From: Acidimicrobiales bacterium
Lineage (GTDB): Bacteria; Actinomycetota; Acidimicrobiia; Acidimicrobiales; CAIXPF01
DNA: 51,118 nucleotides
Assembly: GCA_020846295.1 (NCBI GenBank)
Contig: JADLEF010000391.1
Coordinates: 1-51,118, forward strand
Reading direction: 5' to 3'
Positions 32,655 to 37,949 of the stretch are shown piece by piece; the stretch's first letter is position 1; every line of letters starts with the position of its first letter. A program made the position numbers and the translations under genes. The notes beneath the pieces were generated by a model, which did no database searches, was not told where the DNA came from, and saw only the letters and a program-made list of their open reading frames with translations.

Positions 32655-33299
32655 TCACACCATCCGGTCGCGCGGCGTCGGCGCCGTCCAGGCGTGGCGG
32701 ATGGCGAGCAGGCGCAGCGTGAACGCCACGCAGATGATGGCGCCGGCCACGATCGCATCGAGCGCCCGCAGGTGCCAGCACAACGTCGCCGCGGCGGCGG
32801 TGAGGGCGGCGGGGATGGCGTAGAGCTCGCTGTCGGCCCGGAAGATCACCGGCACGTCGCGGGCCAACACGTCGCGGATGACACCCCCGCCGACCGCACT
32901 CATCGTACCGAGCAGTATGGCAGCCCACCAGCCGTTGCCACGTTCCAGCGTGCGGGTCGCCCCGGTCACCGCGAACAGCCCGAGCCCGGCGGCGTCGAAC
33001 ATCAGCACGATCCGCTCCACCCGCAGCACCCACCCGTGCGCGGCCATCACGATCAGCGTGGCGGCCGCCGGCAGGATCATGAACGCGACCGAGCGCAGGG
33101 CGAGCGGCGGCGTATCACCCAGCAACACGTCGCGCACCATGCCCCCGCCCAGGCCGGTGGCGCCGGCCAACACGCCGACGCCGACGATGTCGAACCGCTT
33201 GCGGGCCGCCAGCGACGCGCCCGACAGCGCGAACACCAGCACGCCCAGCTGGTCGATCCACTGCAGCGCCGACGCGCTCAGGAGTCCGGTTGCCACCAC
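32655..33299 (-). CDS. UPF0126/TRIC-type membrane protein
   Basis: A 214-residue membrane protein made of two tandem repeats of about three helices each. The repeat hallmark occurs twice: GLGGGMVRDVLLGDTPP and AVGGGVIRDVLARDVPVIF. This is the UPF0126 family, which has structural similarity to eukaryotic trimeric intracellular cation channels; a monovalent cation channel role has been proposed for prokaryotic members. A GTG at 33299, six nt after GGGGA, fits best as start. The frame continues further upstream through an unrelated region. Confidence 0.88.
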   Translation of the reverse strand: MVATGLLSASALQWIDQLGVLVFALSGASLAARKRFDIVGVGVLAGATGLGGGMVRDVLLGDTPPLALRSVAFMILPAAATLIVMAAHGWVLRVERIVLMFDAAGLGLFAVTGATRTLERGNGWWAAILLGTMSAVGGGVIRDVLARDVPVIFRADSELYAIPAALTAAAATLCWHLRALDAIVAGAIICVAFTLRLLAIRHAWTAPTPRDRMV

Positions 33300-33423
33300 G
33301 ATCGCTCCCCTGCTCAGCGGCCGATCATCGCCCCGCTGGAGCACGCCAGCGTGCCCGTCCCGGGTACGGTCGCGCAATGGCGGCCTGCGGGAGGCACGAG
33401 CGGGACAGCAGGGAGGCGGCACG

Positions 33424-34314
33424 GTGATCGTCGACAGCGGGCTGGCCGCTCGTCTCGAGGCGACGTTGGTGGCCGACATCGCGATGTTCGTCCGCGGTGT
33501 CGCGGCCACCGCGCCGCGCACGGGTGCCCGTCGCATCCCGGTGGCCGGTGGTTGGGCCGCCTGGACCGGGCTGTTCGGCAACCGGGTCCAGGGCGCCGGC
33601 CTGGCGGGCGGGACCGACCCCACCGACGCCGACCCAGACCACGCCGACCCAGACCACGCCGACCCAGACCACGCCGACCCAGACCACGCCGAACCCCACG
33701 CCGGCGGCATCGACGACGCCGAGCGCTTCTACGACGGGCTCGACCGGCGCTGCGAGTTCGAGCTGTGCCCCTTGGCGGACCCGCAGCTGACCCGGTCGCT
33801 CGCCGGGCGCGGCTACCGCCTGGTCGGGTTCCGCAACGTGTACGCCGCCGCTCCCGAGCCCCGACACCCGTCGGTGCCCGGCATCGACGTGCACCAGGTG
33901 CGCGGCGACGACACGTCGCTGGACCGGTGGTCGACCCTGATCCTCGACGGGTTCGGCTATCGCGACGCTGCGGCGCGCGCCGCCGTCGACCGCTGGAACC
34001 GCATGCTGAGCGCCCAACCCGAGGCGCAGCTGTTCCTCGCCGTGATCGAGGGCCGCCCGGCCGGCGCCGCGAACCTGTTGATCCACGGCGACACCGCCTC
34101 GCTCGGTGGGACCACGACGTTGCCCGCCGAGCGACGGCGCGGCGTGCAACGCGCCCTGCTCGATGCCCGCCTCGCGGCCGCGCACGCCGCGGGCTGCACG
34201 CTGGCGGTGGTGACGGCGGATCCCGGAAGCGGGTCGGCCCGCAACGTGGAGCGAGCCGGGTTCCAGCTGGCGTACACCAACGTGCGCTTGCGCCGGCCGG
34301 TCACCGCCCGCTGA
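33424..34314 (+). CDS. GNAT family N-acetyltransferase with repeat linker
   Basis: A 296-residue protein from GTG 33424 with GGGAGG upstream. The C-terminal half (about 150-296) is a GNAT domain: FLAVIEGRPAGAANLLIH as beta strands 4-5, LPAERRRGVQRALLDARLA as the acetyl-CoA pyrophosphate loop (RRxGVQ), and SARNVERAGFQLAYTN as the final strand pair. The N-terminal part (about 1-150) is a divergent GNAT-like or unknown domain. Residues 69-88 consist of four ADPDH-type units encoded by a 15-bp minisatellite. The acyl acceptor is unknown. Confidence 0.83.
   Translation: MIVDSGLAARLEATLVADIAMFVRGVAATAPRTGARRIPVAGGWAAWTGLFGNRVQGAGLAGGTDPTDADPDHADPDHADPDHADPDHAEPHAGGIDDAERFYDGLDRRCEFELCPLADPQLTRSLAGRGYRLVGFRNVYAAAPEPRHPSVPGIDVHQVRGDDTSLDRWSTLILDGFGYRDAAARAAVDRWNRMLSAQPEAQLFLAVIEGRPAGAANLLIHGDTASLGGTTTLPAERRRGVQRALLDARLAAAHAAGCTLAVVTADPGSGSARNVERAGFQLAYTNVRLRRPVTAR
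33631..33690. repeat. 15-bp minisatellite, four perfect copies
   Basis: GACCCAGACCACGCC is repeated four times without change (33631-33645, 33646-33660, 33661-33675, 33676-33690), with a partial diverged fifth copy after it. Each unit adds five residues (DPDHA) in the acetyltransferase, so copy number can change without a frameshift. Confidence 0.97.
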
Positions 34315-34326
34315 ACCCGAGTGCCG

Positions 34327-34851
34327 TCACCGGTCCCGGTCCCGGTCCGGATCGGGATCGGGATCGGGATCGGGCACGATCGTGAGGCCGAGGGAGTACC
34401 CGCGTCCCCGGGCGGGGAACACGTCCAGGCCGACGGCGCGCAGCGAGCCCCGGAGTCGATGCACGGTGCGGTGCAACCGCCTCGTGTCCGCGTCGGTGAG
34501 TCCGAGGCTCGTCAGCAGCGTCGTCCTGGGGGTCACCGCGAAGCGGTGCTGCAGCAACACGGCCAGCACGGCGGCCTCCCCCGCCGACAGGGCGACCGTG
34601 CCGTGCCCGGTGTGCAGCACGGCGTCCTCCAACCGGATCGATGCCGAGAACCGCAGGCCGAGCTGCCGGGACCGGGCCGTGATGTCGGCGTCGGAGGCCG
34701 GCAGCCGGACCCAGTCCTCGTCATCGGCATCGAGGTCCGCCGGCAGCGACGCGGCAGCCTCCACCAACAGCAGGCAGGGCAGCGCGGCGGACCGCAACCG
34801 GGCCCGAAGCGACGCCTCGGACGGCCATCGCACGACCGAAGGAGACCACAT
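34327..34851 (-). CDS. Winged-helix regulator with RWP...EDWVR N-terminal domain
   Basis: A 174-residue protein. Residues 5-60 form a small domain with RWPSE at 8-12, LPCLLLVEA at 24-32 and EDWVRLP at 45-51, which could be a degenerate receiver. Residues 66-156 are an OmpR/PhoB-type winged helix: GEAAVLAVLLQHRFAVTPRT, then the recognition-helix region DADTRRLHRTVHRLRGSL and the wing GRGYSL. The C-terminus is a DP/DR repeat tail coded by hexanucleotide repeats. The N-terminal domain is homologous to the stand-alone protein at 36244-36582. Located 43 nt after amt in the same direction; a nitrogen-regulatory role (GlnR-like) is inference. Confidence 0.78.
   Translation of the reverse strand: MWSPSVVRWPSEASLRARLRSAALPCLLLVEAAASLPADLDADDEDWVRLPASDADITARSRQLGLRFSASIRLEDAVLHTGHGTVALSAGEAAVLAVLLQHRFAVTPRTTLLTSLGLTDADTRRLHRTVHRLRGSLRAVGLDVFPARGRGYSLGLTIVPDPDPDPDPDRDRDR
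34331..34372. repeat. Hexanucleotide repeats encoding DR/DP tail
   Basis: Three CGGTCC units (34331-34348) are followed by four GGATCG units (34349-34372). On the minus strand they encode the alternating Asp-Pro and Asp-Arg tail of the winged-helix regulator, just before its stop. Confidence 0.9.
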
Positions 34852-34894
34852 CGTGCTGACCCTGCACGCCGCTGTCGGACCGGTGCCCCGACGC

Positions 34895-36148
34895 TCAGAC
34901 CGCGTAGGCGGTCTCGGCGTGCTGGCTGACGTCGAGCCCGGTGTCCTCCTGGTCCTCGCTCACCCGCAGGCCCATCGTGGCGTCGATGCCCTTGGCGATG
35001 ATGAAGGTCACCACCGAGGAGTACACCAACGTGGCGATCACGGCGACGAACTGGTCGATGAGCAGATCGGCGCCACCACCGAAGAACAGCCCGTCGCTGC
35101 CGATGCCGGTGGCGGAGGCGTCGGCGAAGAGGCCGAGCAGCAGCGAGCCGAGGATGCCACCGACGAGGTGCACGGCGATGACATCGAGGCTGTCGTCGAG
35201 CTTGAGCGCCTTCTTGATGCCGATGGCGAGGTAGCACGCCGCCCCGGCGATGGCGCCGATGGCGATCGGCGCCATCCCGCCCACGAACCCGGCGCACGGG
35301 GTGATGGCGACCAGACCGGCGACCGCGCCGGAGGCGGCGCCGAGGGTCGTGGCGTGACCGCCCTTGACCTTCTCGATCGCCAACCAGCCCAGCATGGCTG
35401 CGGAGGCGGCGAGGCTGGTGTTGACCAGCGCCTGGGCCGCCTGTGCGGTCGCCCCGAGGGCCGAGCCGGCGTTGAACCCGAACCAACCGAACCAGAGGAT
35501 GCCGGTGCCGATCAGCGTGGTCGGCAGGTTGTGGGGCAGCATCGGCTGGTTCGGGAACCCCTTGCGGGCTCCGATGACCCAGACCACCACCAGGGCAGCG
35601 ATGCCGGCGTTGATGTGGATGGCGGTGCCGCCCGCGAAGTCCAGCGCACCCCGCTCGAACAGCCAGCCCTTCGGGGAGAACACCCAGTGGGCCACCGGCG
35701 AGTACACCAGGATCGACCAGATCCCGATGAACACCGCGTAGGCACCGAACTTCAGCCGGTCCGCCGTGGCTCCGGTGATCAGCGCCGGGGTGATGATGGC
35801 GAACATCATCTGGAAGGCGAAGAACACGATCGGCGGCACGGTCAGGAAGTCGAGGCCGGGCAGGTTGTTCACCAGCGCCCCCTCGGCGTCGAGGGCCATG
35901 ACGTCCTTCATGAAGGCGAAGTCGAAGTTGCCGATGAACCCGCCACCGTCACCGAAGGCGAGCGAGAACCCGATGATCGGCCACAGCACGCCGATGAGGC
36001 CCATGGCGAACACGTTCTGCATCAACATGCCGAGCACGTTCTTGCTGCGGACCATGCCGCCGTAGAACAGGGCGAGGCCCGGCGTCATGAACAGCACGAG
36101 TGCGGTGGCGGTCAGCACCCATGCGGTATCCCCCGCGTTCAGTTCCAT
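34895..36148 (-). CDS. amt: Ammonium transporter, Amt family
   Basis: A 417-residue Amt protein with 11 predicted membrane helices. The conserved pore histidines are present: His178 in AGGTAIHINAG and His327 in VIAVHLVGG. The N-terminus LFMTPGLALFYGGMVRSKNVL is diagnostic. It conducts ammonium/ammonia across the cytoplasmic membrane. ATG 36148 is chosen because homology begins there, with AGGAG 11 nt upstream. The usual partner glnK (PII) is absent; instead, paralogous regulator-like genes flank amt on both sides in the same orientation (96 nt upstream, 43 nt downstream). Confidence 0.95.
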   Translation of the reverse strand: MELNAGDTAWVLTATALVLFMTPGLALFYGGMVRSKNVLGMLMQNVFAMGLIGVLWPIIGFSLAFGDGGGFIGNFDFAFMKDVMALDAEGALVNNLPGLDFLTVPPIVFFAFQMMFAIITPALITGATADRLKFGAYAVFIGIWSILVYSPVAHWVFSPKGWLFERGALDFAGGTAIHINAGIAALVVVWVIGARKGFPNQPMLPHNLPTTLIGTGILWFGWFGFNAGSALGATAQAAQALVNTSLAASAAMLGWLAIEKVKGGHATTLGAASGAVAGLVAITPCAGFVGGMAPIAIGAIAGAACYLAIGIKKALKLDDSLDVIAVHLVGGILGSLLLGLFADASATGIGSDGLFFGGGADLLIDQFVAVIATLVYSSVVTFIIAKGIDATMGLRVSEDQEDTGLDVSQHAETAYAV

Positions 36149-36243
36149 CAGCGGTCTGCTCCTTGCTCGAGATGCACGGAGACAGATTCCGGCGACACTG
36201 TTTCCGGAAGATGTCCGGCGCACGTCGCCTGGATGAACGACCG

Positions 36244-36582
36244 CTACGCGCGCGGCCCGGGAGCCCCATCCGGCTGCGGCAGCTCGACCGGCGTTCGCCG
36301 CCCCTGCTCCATGGAGCGCCGCAGGGCCACCGTGACGCGGCGGACCTCCAGCTCCTCCGGATCGACCGGCTCACGGACCCAGTCCTCGATGTGGTCCCAG
36401 TGGCTCGGCGGCGGTTGCTCGGCGGGCAGCACCAGGATGCGGGGGATGCCGGCCGCGGCCAACCACCTCCGCCGGGCATCCTCCTCCGGCCAGCGCAACA
36501 CGACGACCGCCACGGCGGCGCTGTCTGCGCTGTCCGCTCCGGTCGGTGTGTGCGCCTGCGGGTTCGGCTGTCGGACGTCCAC
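36244..36582 (-). CDS. Stand-alone RWP...EDWVR domain protein upstream of amt
   Basis: A 112-residue protein from GTG 36582, with AGGAG 4 nt upstream. Residues 27-88 match the N-terminal domain of the winged-helix protein at 34327-34851: RWPEE (30-34), PRILVLPAE (47-55) and EDWVREP (66-72), with one gap over about 45 positions and roughly a third of positions identical by eye. It has no winged helix and ends in a Pro/Gly-rich tail. It lies directly upstream of amt on the same strand. It could dimerise with the downstream regulator or sense a ligand, or be a truncated duplicate. No named family recognised. Confidence 0.72.
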   Translation of the reverse strand: MDVRQPNPQAHTPTGADSADSAAVAVVVLRWPEEDARRRWLAAAGIPRILVLPAEQPPPSHWDHIEDWVREPVDPEELEVRRVTVALRRSMEQGRRTPVELPQPDGAPGPRA

Positions 36583-36730: not shown

Positions 36731-37570
36731 TCAGCAGTGGTGCTTGAGCCCGGCCAGCACCCGGGCCGGTGCGTCCCCGGTGCTCTCGCTGTGGCGCATC
36801 CCGGCATCGACGTTGCAGCACTCGCCGGCGTGCAGCACCAACGGCTCGCCCTCGGTGCGCAGGATGAACACGCCGTCGAGCACGAGCAGCCGGGCCGAGA
36901 ACTCGTGGGCGTGCAGCTCCGCGCCCGGCACGCCGGCGTCGTAGTTGGTGATGCGGATCTCGTCGTCGAACCCGTCGCGGCGCAGCGCCGCGCGGAACTC
37001 GGCCTCGGTCGTGCTCGACGATGCCGCGGGCACGGGCACGGCGTCGTCGAGCCGCGCCACGAGCTGCTCGAGCAGGCGCTCGATCCGGTCCATCGGGCCC
37101 GAGTCGGAGGGTCCGCCCTCCTCCGCGCAGAGCGCGGCGTAACACCCGGCGAGCAGGCGGACGCTGTCGCGCTCCTCGGAGATGAACCGTCCGAGCAGCT
37201 CGCCGGTGCCGATGTCGATCGAGGTGTCGGCGAAGTAGTCCGCCCAACGGTCGGGAGCCGAGGTGTCGGGCGGCGTGCCGAGGCCGAGCTTCTCGAACTT
37301 CTCGCGGTCGGTCAGATCCGTCGCGCCGGCGATGGCCACCCGGCCCGCCGTCTGCGGGGCCTCCTCGATCGAGACGTCGAAGCCGAGCTCACCGATGCGC
37401 TTCTGGAACGCCTTGGTGTGCTCACCCTCGCGCAGCGCCACGGTGGCGATGACCTGGCGGACGTCGGCGCGCGGCGTGGCCGAGGCCCAGGCGGACAGGT
37501 ACTGCTCGGCATTGCACTCGGCGTTGACGATACGTCGCAGCAGCGGCAGGTACGAAGGCTGGGCTTCCAT
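36731..37570 (-). CDS. Ferritin-like domain fused to C-terminal cupin
   Basis: A 279-residue protein. Residues 5-180 look like a ferritin-like helical bundle, with AECNAEQYL in the first helix, the ExxH motif Glu48-Gly-Glu-His51 in the second, and FISEERDSVRLLAGCYAAL in a later helix as another acidic carboxylate-bearing segment. Residues about 195-279 form a cupin barrel: AELHAHEFSARLLVLDG, then EPLVLHAGECCNVDAGMRH with metal-ligand-type His. It may be a metal oxidase or sensor; a function is not assigned. ATG 37570 has GGAGG upstream. It is the first minus-strand gene before the amt set. Confidence 0.75.
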   Translation of the reverse strand: MEAQPSYLPLLRRIVNAECNAEQYLSAWASATPRADVRQVIATVALREGEHTKAFQKRIGELGFDVSIEEAPQTAGRVAIAGATDLTDREKFEKLGLGTPPDTSAPDRWADYFADTSIDIGTGELLGRFISEERDSVRLLAGCYAALCAEEGGPSDSGPMDRIERLLEQLVARLDDAVPVPAASSSTTEAEFRAALRRDGFDDEIRITNYDAGVPGAELHAHEFSARLLVLDGVFILRTEGEPLVLHAGECCNVDAGMRHSESTGDAPARVLAGLKHHC

Positions 37571-37643
37571 GCGCCCAGCCTCCCACAGCATGTGCCGAGC
37601 GTCACGGGGGCAGGTCAGAAAATCGGGCGCTCCCGCGCCGTGA
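37571..37643. other. Start of a 594-bp stretch with no intact gene
   Basis: From 37571 to 38164 no intact gene is supported. It holds the upstream region of the ferritin-like/cupin gene, a frameshifted TetR remnant (37644-37949) and about 215 bp of lower-GC sequence before the sigma factor gene at 38165, in which I see no clear structure. Confidence 0.6.
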
Positions 37644-37949
37644 CCGACCCCCGAAGATGCGGTCGAGTTCTTCGACTTCTGCGTATGGGACCCGGCGCTG
37701 TACCACCTGCTGTGGCAGCGCAAGAGCGCCGACTTCGTGCCGTCTCCGGGCAGCTGGCGGTCGCGCTACGAGCCCGCAAGCAGATGGCCCAAGCGTTCGA
37801 ACGCTTCAAGCGTGAACGGCCAGGACCGGCTCGACCCGTGGAGCGCGATCCTCACCGGTCTCACCAGCCAGCAGCTACCGAACGACGCCCTTGCGCACGC
37901 ATCGCCTCGCCGATGGCTTCACTCGGGCGCGAACCGATTCCGGGCGTAG
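37644..37949 (+). pseudogene. TetR-family regulator remnant, frameshifted
   Basis: Conceptual translation gives the C-terminal ligand domain of a TetR regulator in pieces. Frame 1 reads EDAVEFFDFCVWDPALYHLL up to about 37745. A shifted frame reads LAVALRARKQMAQAFERFKRE from about 37751 to 37815. The first frame then resumes with DRLDPWSAILTGLTSQQL. The sequence order is that of an intact TetR C-terminus, but two opposite 1-nt shifts are needed, and there is no start codon or helix-turn-helix. The last 25 codons look diverged. It is probably a decaying fragment of a gene once longer upstream. Confidence 0.7.

Follow-up and report, generated by a model that had tools for sequence, protein, structure and literature searches.

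The GlnR box of Actinomycetes has been described as gTnAc-n6-GaAAc, and the receivers of GlnR dimerize through alpha4-beta5-alpha5 without phosphorylation (PMC10704036). Individual GlnR sites have been reported from Streptomyces venezuelae, for example TTCACTCCGGCGAAAC (PMC3087709). Streptomyces also has GlnRII, an OmpR-type protein described as missing some of the receiver helices as well as the phosphorylation sites and encoded beside glnII (PMC10704036, PMC3087709). GlnRII binds GlnR-regulated promoters, yet nitrogen genes are little affected when it is deleted (PMC3087709). Another nitrogen regulator, AmtR of Corynebacterium, is of the TetR type (PMC8864220). For the Acidimicrobiia, which are mostly uncultured actinobacteria, nitrogen control seems to be undescribed, and our search found no open-licence paper that deals with this class together with GlnR, or together with an ammonium transporter and a winged helix.

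The window analyzed here, a stretch of 51,118 nt from the 88% complete genome of an uncultured actinobacterium, contains an ammonium transporter gene (amt) flanked by the genes of two small proteins, S1 and S2 (Table 1). S2 belongs to a family of OmpR-type regulators with a probably reduced receiver, which we think is, with some reserve, probably a half-receiver substitute for GlnR acting on boxed nitrogen promoters, S1 being a truncated paralog.

Table 1. Features of the amt locus (positions in the 51,118-nt window)
Feature	Position	Strand	Remarks
S1, lone half-receiver-domain protein	36244..36582	-	112 aa from GTG 36582; 89 aa from GTG 36513
S1 half-receiver domain	36313..36513	-	Conserved columns and AF2 fold
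amt operator, GlnR-box-like, partly decayed	36200..36237	-	Scoring against shuffles, genus alignment
TCTGT, possible -10 region of amt	36182..36186	-	Conserved with genus orthologs; putative function
amt, ammonium transporter, 417 aa	34895..36148	-	Pfam
S2, half-receiver and OmpR-type winged-helix protein, 174 aa	34327..34851	-	
S2 half-receiver domain	34642..34845	-	
S2 winged helix, Trans_reg_C, residues 85-154	34390..34599	-	

Gene content of the amt locus

The minus-strand order S1, amt, S2 and the coordinates given in an earlier note were borne out on the sequence, as were its positions for the shared motifs (RWP at residues 30 to 32 of S1 and 8 to 10 of S2, EDWVR starting at residues 66 and 45, respectively). 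Its gap of 95 nt between S1 and amt was also right, but the second one, between amt and S2, measures 43 nt and becomes 46 nt only when the stop codon is included. The transporter is an ordinary Amt (404 bits to Pfam PF00909). Only S2 carries an OmpR-type winged helix, as had been noticed before, with Pfam Trans_reg_C over its cut-off in S2 (26.6 bits, the cut-off being 26.2) and absent from S1. S1 has no match in Pfam or NCBIfam, and neither protein matches a receiver or GlnR_1st in Pfam. The true start of S1 may be GTG 36513 instead of GTG 36582, since the conserved N terminus of the family begins there. The remark that glnK is not found at this locus was likewise correct, the two P-II genes of the genome being located on other contigs (C200 and C439).

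Some features of the surrounding sequence are worth recording. The C terminus of S2 is encoded by a hexanucleotide repeat (GATCCC/GACCGG-like; positions 34327 to 34384, minus strand; PDPDPDPDRDRDR), which suggests a recent repeat expansion. Convergent to S2 there is an acetyltransferase-like frame (32878 to 34314, plus strand; GNAT by eye) with a run of ADPDH repeats. Upstream from S1, a two-part protein (36731 to 37723, minus strand) has a C-terminal cupin (Pfam Cupin_2), and its N-terminal part matches no Pfam family above the cut-off.

A family of probable half-receiver regulators

S1 and S2 have in common a domain of about 66 residues, with 22 identities over 63 positions and one gap (BLASTP E value of 2e-8, as a single comparison). 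Against a profile of 93 relatives S1 scored 60.9 bits (E value of 3.7e-16 in its own genome), the match being confined to profile positions 2 to 72. These values rule out chance similarity, and the shared domain proposed in the earlier note, with a profile search as its check, is thus significant. S1 is also unlikely to be a spurious open reading frame, given that family matches were found in over a hundred genomes.

With S2 as the query, family members were detected in 127 of 397 Acidimicrobiales genomes. The profile of the N-terminal domain by itself matched only 11 of 396 genomes across the phylum at an E value of 1e-4, seven of which (this one included) belong to the same order, and it matched no ordinary receiver in those 396 genomes. 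By this measure, the N-terminal domain is specific to this regulator family and defines it. Homologs were also found on Streptomyces plasmids (e.g., NZ_CP108633 and NZ_CP102510, with 174 to 178 bits against the family profile), where they have the same RWP...EDWVR domain and are annotated merely as winged helix-turn-helix proteins; the family is therefore wider than Acidimicrobiales. Unlike the members from the order, these plasmid homologs are found among biosynthetic genes and not nitrogen genes. Two of them (L238, 3983-4522, and L239, 3953-4495) lie in or beside biosynthetic gene clusters, and no signature of a glutamine synthetase turned up around the plasmid homolog L237 in a crude motif check.

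The genome contains four members of the family, namely, S1, S2, and one copy each on contigs C138 and C200. The C200 copy (227 bits to the family; Trans_reg_C, 48.6 bits) is located directly before glnK and the C138 copy is divergent from a second amt, so that the three winged copies adjoin amt (S2), the second amt, and glnK. A search for related loci with the S2 sequence retrieved none, and the same search with the glnK-linked copy retrieved three named records, from Acidimicrobiia/Acidimicrobiales. In another genome (G209; L148, 2440-5214), the family has undergone an expansion, with three tandem members adjoining two amt genes and glnK.

To place these neighborhoods in context, 100 family loci picked by match score were inspected. 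Genes for amt and/or P-II were found within about 4 kb at 70 of them (both at 41, amt only at 18, P-II only at 11, and neither at 30), compared to a chance linkage of about 1 in 100, by our own estimate from a handful of amt and P-II genes in a genome of a few Mb. As the choice of loci followed the match score, the 70% linkage applies to the better-scoring members. The most common gene order was regulator-amt-glnK. The linkage to amt in relatives, which mattered to the earlier note, is hence strong, although the 30 loci with neither gene nearby count against reading the family as a GlnR substitute. Most of the unlinked copies have other neighbors in common, such as dnaK and phosphoglycerate mutase (identified by eye). 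This last subgroup (L084, L087, L092, L110, L129, and others) has no amt or glnK nearby, and its own promoters mostly carry the same GlnR-box-like operator.

The AlphaFold models (pLDDT of 93 for S2 and 95 for the S1 domain) have a beta-alpha-beta, loop, beta-alpha topology, followed in S2 by the winged helix; the fold of the S1 domain is accordingly beta-alpha-beta-beta-alpha. Set against a receiver, this probably corresponds to beta3-alpha3-beta4-beta5-alpha5 and leaves out alpha4 as well as the first half and the phospho-acceptor pocket; the modeled domain is probably a trimmed receiver. Its nearest solved folds are receivers, at a modest level of similarity (Foldseek probability of 0.95 to 0.99, best E value of 0.06, and TM score of about 0.6). 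By sequence the resemblance is weak, as hhalign gave a probability of 5% and aligned beta5-alpha5 alone. With the full-length family profile, alignments to response regulators run from about position 14 to 43 onward. The phospho-acceptor Asp is missing, the domain beginning at about beta3 and having no Asp pocket.

A GlnR-box-like operator

The regions upstream from 73 amt/glnK-linked regulators share an expectation-maximization (EM) motif, GTTCAC-n6-GAAACA-n5-GAAAC, present in about 80% of them, and no comparable motif was obtained from shuffled upstream sequence. Operator scores exceeded the 99th percentile of the shuffles in 59 of the 73 linked regulators and also in 22 of 27 unlinked ones, and in 58 of those 59 linked cases the operator was on the strand of the gene. 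Its half-sites repeat at an 11-bp phase. It begins about 51 nt upstream from the regulator start codon (50 to 53 nt between the 10th and 90th percentiles), and a TAnnnT element is found a few bases ahead of the same codon. The position of the operator and the geometry of the TAnnnT element suggest that the transcript is leaderless and that the operator is an activator site covering the -35 region. Since the spacing between box and regulator gene is fixed, the amt-unlinked copies included, the genes of the family are probably autoregulated.

The same box was detected upstream from amt in relatives, with 24 of 29 amt orthologs across the order scoring above the 99th percentile of the shuffles. 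Three matches to the exact core TTCAY-n6-GAAAC, and none to the reversed pattern, are present in the genome of the window. Two of these matches are found before the glnK-linked regulator and 85 nt before a type III glutamine synthetase gene (C229; L234, 2-1432, minus strand; GSIII_N, 251 bits), while the third (C66), in or beside an unrelated metallo-hydrolase-like frame, is probably due to chance. The amt operator of the window is partly decayed, reading TTCAT / GACGT / GACAT / GAAAC at 11-bp spacing; it is in register with the orthologs of the genus (TTCAT-22-GAAAC-11-GAAAC), and its score was reached by 0 of 2,000 shuffles. S1, S2, and the C138 copy have no strong box of their own. GlnR-box operators are thus predicted by sequence at amt, glnK, and glutamine synthetase genes.

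Like GlnR, the family has an OmpR-type winged helix (in S2, not in S1), no kinase partner in sight, linkage to amt, glnK, and glutamine synthetase, and an 11-bp-phased operator near the GlnR box. It differs from GlnR in that its receiver is probably cut to about 66 residues, with no Asp-bearing half and no match to GlnR_1st, and in its location within the amt-glnK cluster under an apparently leaderless, self-boxed promoter. Streptomyces GlnRII (SCO2213), likened here by published description, may be the closest characterized relative, as an OmpR-type protein with a reduced receiver that binds GlnR-regulated promoters, but unlike the family in the order it coexists with GlnR. AmtR likewise regulates amt in an actinobacterium and differs in its protein family. 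Judged by one Pfam model, GlnR is nearly undetected in the order, with GlnR_1st over the cut-off in 2 of 397 genomes; in the genome of the window all 14 matches were below it, and these are probably ordinary response regulators. Because the domains match by profile, the linkage to amt is strong, and the operator is present, the GlnR-like nitrogen regulator put forward in the earlier note is now the leading reading.

Truncation of S1 and the protein that reads the box

S1 looks like a truncated paralog of the winged regulators. In a tree of the N-terminal domain (only 70 columns), S1 and the upstream copy of G145 are sisters (support of 100/73), within a clade supported at 98/91. G145 (L049) has the order upstream copy, amt, glnK, downstream copy, and it is the one other genome in which two copies were seen to flank the same type of amt. 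Its upstream copy has no Pfam match, and among 130 full-length winged helices the one in this copy scores lowest (37.9 bits, with a median of 134.6). The DNA-binding half may thus be in the process of being lost from the upstream paralog of this lineage, and in the window it is gone.

The idea that S1 and S2 form a conserved two-part switch around amt gained no support in the comparison. The matches listed for the 397 genomes of the order included no second lone form, and the closest orthologs of the window amt (same genus, 81% identity) have no family member within 1.5 kb on either side. The switch is now a hypothesis about one truncated paralog. Several short matches were discarded as lone forms: L213 is frameshifted and adjoins a run of N; contig ends truncate L215, L216, L217, and L228; and L212 and L214 are not members of the family.

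Whether S1 has no function and is simply what remains of a winged regulator in decay is a question on which our judgment is evenly balanced. The isolated occurrence of the lone form, the genus orthologs without a copy, and the lack of a strong promoter box of its own would all fit a remnant. A frameshifted winged helix behind S1 is ruled out, because only 95 nt separate it from amt, and the winged helix must have been deleted. The tail of S1, QPDGAPGPRA, is similar to PDGAPGRNA, a segment that precedes the recognition helix in relatives, as would fit an internal deletion, although this match is short and GC-rich and could be due to chance. However, the N-terminal domain is intact and its frame open, and it keeps all 12 of the invariant or nearly invariant columns of the family, which argues against a long decay. 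The same columns, together with a coding-like third-position GC of 0.90, as in S2, favor a functional lone half-receiver that would heterodimerize with S2 and/or the C200 and C138 proteins and dampen or tune amt expression, a role along the lines of the earlier note that we regard as unlikely. Its sister in G145 occupies the same upstream position, opposite a winged copy, with a winged helix of its own that is badly degenerate, and of the alpha4-beta5-alpha5 face through which GlnR receivers dimerize without phosphorylation (PMC10704036), beta5 and alpha5 are kept here. Against such a role, the dimer face is incomplete because alpha4 is missing, the lone form is seen in one genome only, and other members of the S1 clade (L138, L148, and L120) retain their winged helices.

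A further question is which protein reads the box. It precedes amt also in genomes G009, G105, G269, and G304, in none of which a family member was found, so that another protein must read it there. Near amt, G105 encodes a small protein with a winged helix only (L240, 15175-15576, minus strand), whose ATG is preceded by the same box at 50 nt, and this winged-helix-only relative may be a candidate reader in that genome. Such a situation could apply to the whole order, the box being read by some other full-length GlnR-type regulator and the half-receiver proteins being mere targets or accessory factors. The case of GlnRII, which binds GlnR promoters and whose deletion barely affects nitrogen genes (PMC3087709), would agree with this, but the scarcity of GlnR_1st matches over the cut-off (in just two genomes of the order) and the fixed distance of the box before regulator genes, even those unlinked to amt, which fits autoregulation, make it in our opinion an improbable explanation.

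Under the half-receiver substitute that we prefer, the members of the S2 family would be small regulators of the OmpR type that retain only half a receiver (probably beta3-alpha3-beta4-beta5-alpha5), incapable of being phosphorylated, and that would hold, in Acidimicrobiales, the place usual for GlnR. They would bind the 11-bp-phased half-sites TTCAC-n6-GAAAC-n6-GAAAC, predicted to overlap the -35 region of their own, often leaderless, promoter as well as of the amt, glnK, and glutamine synthetase promoters, and would most likely activate these promoters at nitrogen shortage. S1 would be a paralog in the upstream position beside amt from which truncation has removed the winged helix. Should the S1 protein be produced, its most likely effect would be to weaken binding by S2 or the other copies through pairing with their half-receivers; failing that, S1 would be a remnant.

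It remains rather doubtful that, as a general scheme, ammonium uptake in Acidimicrobiales is run by a half-receiver GlnR substitute and tuned in some lineages, via mixed oligomers, by a same-operon paralog without DNA-binding ability (S1 and the G145 upstream copy). Nevertheless, this family, which has a defined operator and accompanies amt and glnK in many Acidimicrobiia genomes, provides a direct handle on nitrogen control in this group. It also suggests a way for a regulon of the GlnR type to be maintained even as the regulator has its receiver part trimmed or loses it altogether.
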